From Pseudomonadota bacterium (GTDB lineage Bacteria > Pseudomonadota > Gammaproteobacteria > Xanthomonadales > SZUA-38), in contig JBCCCR010000017.1 in NCBI GenBank assembly GCA_039033415.1, forward strand, positions 1 through 64,000: 64,000 bases of DNA, in the 5' to 3' direction. The position numbers were made by a program, and so were the translations under genes. Below are positions 36,935 to 63,073 of this stretch, in pieces; the first letter of the stretch is position 1, and each line of letters begins with the position of its first letter. The notes under the pieces are model-generated. The model had not been told where the DNA came from. It was given only the letters and a program-made list of their open reading frames with translations, and ran no database searches.

Positions 36935-37858
36935 ATGAGCAACATCATCAGCGATACGGTTCGAATCATTGGCGTTCCCATGGATCTGGGTGCAAGCCGC
37001 CGTGGCACCGATATGGGGCCTTCAGCGCTTCGCGTTGCCGGCCTGGGTCGCTCGCTGCGCGAACTCGGGCATACGGTGGCCATTGAGGAAGATATTCCTG
37101 TTCCTGCCATGGAGACCCGCGGCGCCGAGTCGGCGACCGCACGATTCAAGTCCGAGATACTGAGCGTCTGTGAGACGCTTTGTGCCCGCGTGAAGCGGTG
37201 TCTAGACGAAGGCGAGAAGCCGCTGGTGCTGGGTGGCGATCACTCGATCGCGATGGGCACCGTCTCGGGTGTTGCGGCCCACTACCGCGAACAAAAAAAA
37301 TCACTCGGGCTCATCTGGTTCGACGCCCATGGAGACATGAATACGCCGGGTTCGTCGCCTACCGGCAACATTCACGGCATGCCGCTGGCACACCTCCTGG
37401 GAAAGGGAGACCCGGACCTCAGCGCCATCGGTGGCTATGTCGGCAAGCTTGACCCGTCTTGTGTCGCGCTGGTGGGGATCCGGGATATCGACGACGACGA
37501 GCGCCGCATCATCCGCGAATCCGGAATCCACGCCTACACAATGCGTGACATCGACGAAAAAGGGATGGCTCGGGTGGCCAGTGAAATTATCAACGTGGTG
37601 GCGGAACACACCGACGGATTCCACGTGAGTTTCGACGTGGACGGCTGTGATCCGGCCGTGATTCCAGGCTCTGGAACGCTGGTTCCGGGCGGCGTGAACT
37701 TTCGCGAGGCGCACCTTTTGCTGGAGATGTGTGCCGATACACACCGGATGACGTCGATGGAAGTGGTGGAGCTAAACCCTTTTCTTGACTCGGGAAATGT
37801 GAGCGCCGAACGAGCCATGGGTATGATTCTCAGTGCGTTTGGTAAGAGAATACTTTAA
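36935..37858 (+). CDS. rocF: Arginase
   Basis: A 307-residue ureohydrolase that splits arginine to ornithine and urea. The dimanganese ligands are intact: His103 (GGDHS), Asp130/His132/Asp134 (WFDAHGDMN) and Asp234/Asp236 (SFDVDGCDP). The substrate loop N-x-H (TGNIHGMPLAH) and the C-terminal MEVVELNP are typical of arginase and not of agmatinase. The ATG is preceded by few purines. It has no arginine-catabolism neighbours and sits between the FleQ-like gene and the small RNA candidate. Confidence 0.95.
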   Translation: MSNIISDTVRIIGVPMDLGASRRGTDMGPSALRVAGLGRSLRELGHTVAIEEDIPVPAMETRGAESATARFKSEILSVCETLCARVKRCLDEGEKPLVLGGDHSIAMGTVSGVAAHYREQKKSLGLIWFDAHGDMNTPGSSPTGNIHGMPLAHLLGKGDPDLSAIGGYVGKLDPSCVALVGIRDIDDDERRIIRESGIHAYTMRDIDEKGMARVASEIINVVAEHTDGFHVSFDVDGCDPAVIPGSGTLVPGGVNFREAHLLLEMCADTHRMTSMEVVELNPFLDSGNVSAERAMGMILSAFGKRIL

Positions 37859-37931
37859 TAAAAATCAATAAAATATTGATTTAAAAGATTTTTTAATGAT
37901 CCTGCAACTGTTCAAAATATGTGCAAACCAA

Positions 37932-37982
37932 TGTCACAAGCTCTGTTACAGCATTGATCGAAAACCTCGTTCGCGGTCCAAT
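37932..37982 (+). promoter_or_regulatory. Candidate promoter with upstream activator site for small RNA
   Basis: TGTCAC-N7-GTTACA (37932-37950) is an imperfect inverted repeat just upstream of TTGATC (37954-37959), a 17-nt spacer and TCCAAT (37977-37982). This gives a plausible sigma-70 promoter with a start near 37989. GacA-type activator sites before Rsm RNAs have the form TGTAAG-N6-CTTACA, which this resembles only loosely. It also resembles the TGTTACA sites near 33.5-35.3 kb. Confidence 0.4.
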
Positions 37983-37988
37983 AAACCT

Positions 37989-38139
37989 GCTCTCGATGTG
38001 TGTGTAACGCAAAGTCTTCAGGACGAAGCAGGGGGAATCGGCAGGGATGTCGACACAGCGCACGCGGCGGCTGTTGAGTGGAATTAATTGCCGTCGCAGT
38101 GCCCAAGCCCGGTTTGTTGAAGCCAAACCGGGCTTTTTT
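37989..38139 (+). ncRNA. Candidate Csr/Rsm-type small RNA
   Basis: No coding frame of note is present between arginase and the DUF3299 gene, but the RNA structure is striking. CTTC-AGGAC-GAAG (38016-38028) presents AGGA in a hairpin loop. TCGGC-AGGGAT-GTCGA (38038-38053) presents AGGGA in a second, and CAGGGATGT there matches the core of the CsrA consensus (ARGGAUGU). Further GGA occurrences lie at 38034 (GGGGGAA) and about 38080 (GTGGAATT). A strong intrinsic terminator ends the stretch. Sequestration of CsrA/RsmA is inferred from these motifs; the exact 5' end is a guess from a weak promoter. Confidence 0.55.
38105..38139 (+). terminator. Intrinsic terminator of the small RNA candidate
   Basis: AAGCCCGGTTT (38105-38115) pairs perfectly with AAACCGGGCTT (38125-38135), with a nine-base loop and a run of T to 38139. 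It points in the plus direction and is 250 nt beyond arginase, so it more likely serves the small RNA than that gene. Confidence 0.88.
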
Positions 38140-38185
38140 ATGCCCGCGTTTTCTTAGCCGCGGTCAGCGCAATGCAGGCGGCGCC

Positions 38186-38743
38186 CTATTCTGGCCATTC
38201 GTAGGGACTGATTTCGCCGGCTTCCATCGTGTAGCCAGCAGATCCCATATAACTTTCGTAGCTTTTTGTTCTGAGGGTCCCCTCAATCCAGAACGGATCC
38301 CACAGCGACTTCAGCTCAAACGGCTCTTTGAGCTTGACGTAAACCAGCTGATTGGGTGGTGGCGGCGGCACGTGGATGCAGGCGCCGAAATAAGGCACGA
38401 GGAAAAACTCGGACATCATGCCAACCTCGTCGGATTCGAGCGGCACCACAAAACCCGGCAGCTTGACCTTCTGTTTGTCTAACTCGGGTACGAGGGCGCC
38501 GAACATCGAGGCTGGGGAGGCCTGCTCCAGCAAATCATCGAGTGCTTCCTCACGGCTGGTAGTCCAGGCGGCCTTCTCTGACTCCGGGATCAGATCGTCC
38601 CAGTTGAGCTCGCGGTATTCCTCATCAGCGTAGGCAACGCCGACCGCGCAAAGGCAAGTGAGCACCACTAGCTGGCGCAAGATCTTCCAGGCTTTCTGGT
38701 TCAGTATCGCTGGTGCCGCCACGTTGACGTCCTTTTTCTGCAT
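38186..38743 (-). CDS. DUF3299-type exported protein
   Basis: A 185-residue protein with an N-terminal signal sequence (ILRQLVVLTCLCAVGVAYA). The mature part has LNWDDLIPES, then LPGFVVPLE, FLVPYFGACIHVPPPPPN and LKEPFELKSLWDPFWIEGTL, the conserved blocks of DUF3299. The segment GACIHVPPPPPNQ contains the invariant Cys-His that could bind a metal. It is probably periplasmic. Function is unknown for the family, though members often sit beside ABC-type export genes, which are absent here. ATG 38743 is chosen to place the signal peptide at the N-terminus. Confidence 0.83.
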   Translation of the reverse strand: MQKKDVNVAAPAILNQKAWKILRQLVVLTCLCAVGVAYADEEYRELNWDDLIPESEKAAWTTSREEALDDLLEQASPASMFGALVPELDKQKVKLPGFVVPLESDEVGMMSEFFLVPYFGACIHVPPPPPNQLVYVKLKEPFELKSLWDPFWIEGTLRTKSYESYMGSAGYTMEAGEISPYEWPE

Positions 38744-38875
38744 TGTGAGATCTGACCAAAGACCGTTCACCTAGTTCATTGGTCACTTGCTTTGCCCGTT
38801 TTCGAGAGGCACTCTTGCGGGCTTGCTGTGGTTGTACTCGACCACCGCCACCCGTACTTTCAACAAGGATTACCC

Positions 38876-62158: not shown

Positions 62159-62359
62159 GACGTTCGCATACCGATAGGGCTGACGGGACCCACAGACGAA
62201 AACCGTTGGTCGGGCTCGCAGAGTCCCGATACGCACCGATATGCAGCAGCTGGAGCACAACGTTTCGCACAGTGAGCGCCTGAATGCGGCCGAACCAAGT
62301 ACGCCACTGCAACTGGTACTGGTCCGTCAAGAAGCCTCGCTTCACGGCGCAGCAGCGAT

Positions 62360-62555
62360 TGACGACAGCAGGTCTCCTGGCTTACGCCTCGAACGCTTAC
62401 CCCCTCCTTCCCGCATCACAAGGTGCGTCACCGATTGGTTCAGCTCTGGACACAGTGGCATGTGGGAGGCTCGCTTGGCGTTTACAGTTGCGAGGACAGC
62501 CGTGGATTTGCACCACGTTCCCTTTTTCACTTAGAGCATGATGCTCTAAGGCTTG
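62360..62555 (-). ncRNA. Cobalamin riboswitch upstream of the B12 operon
   Basis: Reading the minus strand, a P2-like hairpin (CTTAGAGCAT/ATGCTCTAAG, 62549-62530) precedes the conserved core: AAAGGGAACGTGGTGC, then AAATCCACGGCTGTCC, then TCGCAACTGT (62525 to 62484). The B12 box GCCAGGAGACCTGC is at 62381-62368. These are the universal elements of adenosylcobalamin-class riboswitches in the right order. The start codon of the first gene is about 210 nt further down. No intrinsic terminator is evident, so translational control is possible. Confidence 0.93.
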
Positions 62556-62566
62556 CCGCTGGTTCG

Positions 62567-62596
62567 AGTCTAGCCGAATCTTTCGACGATAAGCAA
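62567..62596 (-). promoter_or_regulatory. Candidate promoter of the B12 operon
   Basis: On the minus strand TTGCTT (62596-62591), an 18-nt spacer and TAGACT (62572-62567) would start transcription just before the riboswitch at about 62560. The match to sigma-70 consensus is moderate. Confidence 0.4.
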
Positions 62597-62687: not shown

Positions 62688-62716
62688 TTGACATCGCTCT
62701 GTGTCCACGTCAGCAT
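62688..62716 (+). promoter_or_regulatory. Candidate promoter of btuB
   Basis: TTGACA (62688-62693) is a perfect -35, followed after 17 nt by CAGCAT (62711-62716), a weak -10. It would start transcription at about 62723, where the riboswitch begins. Confidence 0.45.
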
Positions 62717-62719
62717 CTT

Positions 62720-62890
62720 AGGCTGATGGTGCTGCATCCGTGCGGCCAAAAGTGAATACGGTAAGAAGCCGTAGCTGTACCCGCAACTGTATGCCGGGAG
62801 CGAAGGGCCCCGACGCCACTGGAGCAAACCTAGAAGCTCCGGGAAGGCGGCCCCTAGCGTCGATCGGCGAGCCAGGAGACCTGCCATCGC
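62720..62890 (+). ncRNA. Cobalamin riboswitch upstream of btuB
   Basis: The core reads AGTGAATACGGTAAG, AAGCCGTAGCTGTA, then CCCGCAACTGT (62780-62790), followed by variable helices and the B12 box GCCAGGAGACCTGCC (62871-62885). The 188 nt between box and btuB include a hairpin with GCCGG/CCGGC and CCTCA/TGAGG arms (62906-62939) without a T-tract, so translation rather than termination may be controlled. Confidence 0.92.
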
Positions 62891-63073
62891 GTCGTTCGTC
62901 CGGAGGCCGGGATAGCCTCAGCGGGCAGTGAGGTCCGGCGTTCTGCGCAGCACTTTCTCTCAGCAACGACACTCCAAATCGGTCGGCCGCCCCATGGGAT
63001 TATCCATGCAGGCCCACGTAGTCGTTGACTGAGCACCCAAACACGGGCGGACGGGTGCCGGTGGAGAGATTTC

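Follow-up and report, generated by a model that had tools for sequence, protein, structure and literature searches.

A conserved candidate CsrA-sequestering small RNA gene from an uncultured Lysobacterales bacterium

Introduction

RsmW and other minor CsrA-binding sRNAs are reportedly additional, lineage-limited CsrA-binding RNAs. Among open-licence papers, we found no account of an RNA like the one described here in Lysobacter, Lysobacterales or Xanthomonadales. In Xanthomonas, the part of the RsmU study drawn on here describes RsmU as processed from the comEA 3' UTR, reports that it binds RsmA, gives it three or four GGA motifs and no Rfam homologue, and describes its conservation as confined, among bacteria, to Xanthomonas; the same part states that no RsmA-sequestering sRNA has been identified in the other xanthomonads that it names (PMC7694677). 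The canonical GacA/UvrY box is, in the section consulted of a second source, the 18-bp sequence TGTAAG-N6-CTTACA (PMC4682653).

We analysed a window of 64,000 nucleotides (the whole stretch of DNA under study) from the genome of an uncultured Lysobacterales bacterium, G000 below. In one of its non-coding gaps, an earlier note made from the letters alone had proposed an RNA that sequesters CsrA/RsmA.

Results

The gap comprises 327 nt (37859-38185) and is flanked in the window by the ORFs of arginase and of a DUF3299-type gene. The gap length given in the earlier note was confirmed, the arginase ORF ending at 37858 and the minus-strand DUF3299-type ORF at 38186, and so was its strong terminator, with 12 pairs at 38105-38135 and a T run after them. 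The features of the locus are listed below, with G001 and G003 standing for the two related genomes introduced in the next paragraph.

36935-37858, + strand: arginase gene (ORF list)
37920-37941, + strand: conserved upstream element TGTGCAAACCAATGTCACAAGC, with a 19-bp imperfect dyad TGTG...CACA; the 22-nt run is identical in the window, G001 and G003
37932-37950, no strand: imperfect inverted repeat TGTCACAAGCTCTGTTACA of the earlier note, found in the window; G003 does not keep its right half
37952-37960, + strand: CATTGATCG, conserved, possible -35 (TTGATC); run identical in the window and G003
37980-37985, + strand: AATAAA, conserved, possible -10, 20 nt past TTGATC; identical in all three sequences
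37992-38137, + strand: predicted sRNA transcript of about 145 nt, placed from the conserved -10-like box and the terminator; start within about 10 nt either way
38012-38047, + strand: conserved RNA core AAGTCTTCAGGA.GAAGCAGGGGG..TC.GCAGGGA with both A(G)GGA sites; 31 of 35 columns equal G003
38016-38028, + strand: hairpin A, CUUC-AGGAC-GAAG, weak, GGA in the loop; stem invariant in three sequences
38038-38053, + strand: hairpin B, UCGGC-AGGGAU-GUCGA, GGA in the loop (fold and pair probabilities)
38060-38102, + strand: long hairpin C, loop GUGGAA in the window and G001, GUGGGG in G003
38105-38140, + strand: intrinsic terminator, 12-bp stem and T run (terminator scan)
38186-38770, - strand: DUF3299-type gene, named after the earlier note (ORF list), convergent with the gap RNA

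A DNA search of 61 genomes gave matches in three: G000 itself, its congener G001, where the gap RNA is 92% identical to the window, and G003, from another genus of the same family, where the match comes in two pieces and forms a mosaic of kept runs amid diverged sequence. The kept runs in G003 are, in order, TGTGCAAACCAATGTCACAAGC, CATTGATCG and AATAAA, followed by the core runs AAGTCTTCAGGA, GAAGCAGGGGG and GCAGGGA. Conserved columns between the window and G003 concentrate in the upstream block (37919-37940, 21 of 22) and in the core block (38012-38046, 31 of 35 aligned columns), as against 31/77 over 37941-38011, 23/56 over 38047-38101 and 18/44 in the terminator. In G003 the terminator differs in sequence but has an 11-bp stem and a T run, and the RNA gene lies on the strand opposite to arginase and converges with it. 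The opposite orientation, together with a different and intact terminator, indicates that the RNA is neither an arginase 3' UTR nor a leader and forms an independent transcription unit. We thus regard it as very probable that the gap holds a real stand-alone RNA gene, conserved across three genomes that belong to a single family of Lysobacterales.

Four GGA triplets lie in the gap (38021-38023, 38034-38036, 38045-38047 and 38080-38082), including two besides those of hairpins A and B, as previously noted. G003 has lost those at 38034-38036 and 38080-38082, so that two of the four persist. The region 37973-38141 folds at -67.9 kcal/mol (z -3.2), a value equalled by 1 of 200 shuffles, and the G003 RNA reaches a z of -3.5. 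Local hairpin loops contain three of the four GGA in the window; since 15 of 500 dinucleotide shuffles reach the same count, one genome alone provides modest evidence, and one of the two GGA of G003 sits in a local loop, a result that 349 of 500 shuffles do as well. Judged from the aligned sequences, it is conservation that probably lifts the GGA-loop pattern above chance.

The two proposed A(G)GGA hairpins fared differently, the AGGGA hairpin B being fairly robust (about 0.76) and the AGGA hairpin A a minority fold (about 0.24). Hairpin B is favoured in the window, with pair probabilities of 0.52-0.76, and matches the CARGGAUGU of what we take to be the CsrA SELEX consensus. Relative to the window, its G003 form CGC-AGGGAC-GCG has one pair with both bases altered, one with a single base altered and one that no longer pairs; its GGA loop is present in the window, G001 and G003 alike. 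Hairpin A has ensemble pair probabilities of 0.23-0.24 in the window, 0.31-0.33 in G001 and 0.05-0.25 in G003; the minimum-energy fold of the window pairs its GGA instead. Its stem does not vary and therefore says nothing by covariation. Almost no covariation was seen overall, because there are only three sequences and two of these are 92% identical (pairs compared manually in a single alignment that has the terminator shifted by one column).

We then considered the protein partners. CsrA was found in 9 of the 9 genomes searched, with one copy each in G000, G001, G003 and the fourth genome of the family, G002; the G000 protein has L4 and R44, which we take to be key RNA-contact residues. A GacA/UvrY orthologue (NF007018) scores above the curated cut-off in three of the four family genomes (G000, G001 and G003), while the match in G002, at 178 bits, falls under the cut-off and spans profile positions 1-138 only. 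At gathering scores, Rfam recognises in the whole window only cobalamin riboswitches and a tRNA, with no CsrB, CsrC, RsmX, RsmY or RsmZ (PrrB_RsmZ), and relaxed thresholds over 37850-38190 gave seven weak chance matches with no Csr/Rsm family among them; the idea that the gap RNA might belong to one of these families was thereby not borne out. The two cobalamin riboswitches of the window are divergent (62350-62572 on the minus and 62710-62902 on the plus strand), with 137 nt between them.

A CsrA-sequestering RNA would be consistent with what the locus and the genome offer, namely a stand-alone, terminated non-coding RNA whose AGGA and AGGGA sites are conserved, and the coding of a single CsrA together with an orthologue of GacA/UvrY. 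The original proposal is thus supported in part; its suggestion of a GacA-type promoter is not. We moderately favour the reading of the gap RNA as a lineage-specific CsrA-sequestering sRNA, in which the mode of action would be known, the RNA new and the switch region unfamiliar. Counting against it are the retention of only two GGA sites in G003, the weakness of hairpin A and the absence of a canonical GacA box.

The main rival is a base-pairing (Hfq-type) sRNA, in which the conserved core AAGUCUUCAGGAYGAAGCAGGGGG would be a seed for mRNAs and the GGA sites incidental. The core is unchanged over runs of 11-12 nt, which is more than a CsrA sponge requires, and a block conserved in this way, in which the stems do not vary and a run of G is included, resembles a seed region; moreover, the GGA sites outside the core are gone in G003 and the terminator carries a U tail. 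However, the most conserved stretch holds exactly the AGGA and the AGGGA, and hairpin B persists despite changes in its stem, so that we consider a base-pairing sRNA unlikely, if still a serious contender. It is improbable that the gap codes for a small protein, or is a regulatory DNA or repeat element that has escaped recognition, and holds no functional RNA: a 36-codon frame does start in the window at the ATG of 38047-38049, but this ATG reads ACG in G003, where indels of 2, 3 and 6 leave no reading frame intact; in addition, G003 keeps a terminator with a different sequence, and the core and the upstream element are each single-copy in G000. Finally, a cis-acting element (an arginase 3' UTR or the leader of a neighbouring gene) is very improbable, for although the RNA of the window lies directly 3' of arginase on the same strand, it has its own terminator and a convergent neighbour there, and the G003 RNA faces arginase from the other strand.

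Upstream of the RNA, the element at 37920-37941 is a probable activator site. Its 19-nt core, allowing up to three mismatches, occurs once per genome in G000, G001 and G003, always upstream of the RNA, which is what a regulator that controls few targets would lead one to expect; a single match in G002 was rejected, as it lies inside an MtfA-like coding sequence. The earlier note had instead seen a GacA-type promoter, made of an inverted repeat and a promoter-like pair. This could not be upheld, since the repeat is broken in G003 with no canonical box near it, while the different element at 37920-37941 is fully kept, and no sigma-70-like promoter passes a consensus scan. The canonical GacA box is absent upstream of the RNA, where the 19-bp dyad is found instead. 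Across G000, sites resembling this box with up to two mismatches are fewer than in a reversed-pattern control (35 forward versus 63), hence not enriched, and the only site with one mismatch lies within a PIN-domain-like coding sequence.

In order to describe how widely the RNA occurs, a core model (R1) was run over 398 genomes of the order and gave E <= 0.01 in 154, the E-values of this model being rough. True matches were accepted in G000, G001 and G003 only, at 61.7 bits or more, the next best reaching 41.6 bits. In G002 the model gives nothing better than E 0.3. Thirty loci (L017-L046, including those of the three accepted genomes) were inspected from a larger set of matches, L040 in a part outside its match. 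Of the others, L021, L023-L038 and L041-L046 represent palindromic repeats interspersed in the genomes of family f12 and not the gap RNA; L022 (G303) is a comEA 3' UTR; L020 (G374), the best match outside the family, is surrounded by local repeats that form hairpins of a similar kind; and L039 has no apparent relation to the gap RNA. A gapped pattern applied to a collection of 84,980 species returned 17 stretches, two of which correspond to the loci already described in G001 and G003, while the other 15 are chance matches (12-15 of 22 positions of the full element and 11-15 of 24 of the core). In G002, G012 and G027, arginase has another locus beside it, and no RNA was seen there (6 of 29 arginase loci inspected). 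Hence the expectation that hairpins and GGA sites would be kept together with arginase synteny holds in part: two of the four GGA sites persist beside arginase in G003, in the opposite orientation, but two are lost and the RNA is absent beside arginase in G002 and G012. As the host family is represented by few genomes, the reach of any search for additional members is limited.

Several repeats came to light in these searches. Family f12 has up to 15 matches per genome, many with a GGCAGGGATGCC- or GACAGGGATGTC-type hairpin, and such repeats could place sites of a CsrA-like kind in numerous transcripts. At positions 1290-1545 of L020, intergenic in G374, a double hairpin of the form CTTCCGGA / GCGCCA.GGATGGCGC is repeated in three consecutive units. 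In G003 (L003, 1226-1404), short tandem repeats of the GTGACTCCGTGACTCCG type occur between the arginase and RNA genes, on either side of an intervening stretch, and the minus strand of L066 has a stretch that is similarly dense in GGA.

The comEA 3' UTR, taken as the 220 nt after comEA, was surveyed separately. The set for family f2 of the order has 31 loci (L137, L138, L139, L140, L022 and L166-L191), which represent 30 of the 30 genomes drawn and G303, whose locus L022 came by way of the core model and not by random draw; the comparison set has 29 loci of other families (25 new and four of the window's family). Of 56 genomes with a comEA match, those that yielded a locus were measured. In f2, the mean number of GGA is 7.45 on the sense versus 3.32 on the antisense strand, that of GGA in predicted loops 4.42 versus 1.29, and at least seven GGA occur in 19 of the 31 versus 3 of the 31; the GGA means of the 29 other loci are 3.59 and 3.69. 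These f2 3' UTRs thus resemble Xanthomonas RsmU and are richer in GGA hairpins, RsmU being reported from Xanthomonas only in the portion of the study used here (PMC7694677). In the window's family, four GGA follow comEA in G000 (L065) and three in G001 (L067), and in both genomes a terminator-like hairpin with a 9-bp stem carries the last of them (AGGGAC) in its loop, a feature absent in G003. With four GGA, one of them in a terminator-like loop, the organism of the window may also carry an RsmU-like element; its comEA lies on another contig than the arginase-adjacent RNA. Altogether, the comEA survey points to CsrA sponges derived from mRNAs as an older and stronger feature of this order than has been described.

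Discussion

For the gap RNA as a CsrA-sequestering sRNA, we infer a chain of steps that leads from an activator to competition for CsrA. An activator would bind 37920-37941, plausibly the GacA/UvrY orthologue, although the site is not its usual box, and once bound would drive a weak putative promoter made of TTGATC, 20 nt and AATAAA. RNA polymerase would then transcribe about 145 nt from the plus strand, yielding an RNA in which the AGGA and the AGGGA, 24 nt apart, may lie within the span of a single CsrA dimer. CsrA held by this RNA would be drawn off its mRNA targets by competition. A more radical version, to which we give little credence, is a new form of Csr control in which the invariant core would both titrate CsrA and pair with mRNAs, and in which the 19-bp dyad would have replaced the classical GacA box for the GacA/UvrY of this lineage.

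The gap RNA shares with RsmX, RsmY and RsmZ of Pseudomonas and with enteric CsrB and CsrC the layout of a stand-alone, terminated sRNA gene with A(G)GGA hairpin sites, in a genome that encodes CsrA and GacA/UvrY, and with a single-copy element upstream of the RNA. Unlike them, it has no Rfam match, four GGA of which two are conserved, no TGTAAG-N6-CTTACA box, and a core far longer than its GGA sites. It can be likened to RsmW, by description only, as a candidate for an extra lineage-limited CsrA-binding RNA. With Xanthomonas RsmU, to which we saw no sequence relation, it has in common what is apparently the same order, few GGA motifs and the lack of an Rfam homologue; as far as the consulted part of its description goes, RsmU is processed from an mRNA, whereas the gap RNA has its own locus by arginase and its own upstream element. 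If the CsrA-sequestering reading is true, the locus offers a precise DNA site at which to ask which regulator replaced the classical box, or how GacA reads it, and a dedicated RNA gene with a conserved control element would represent a second solution to CsrA control in the order of RsmU.
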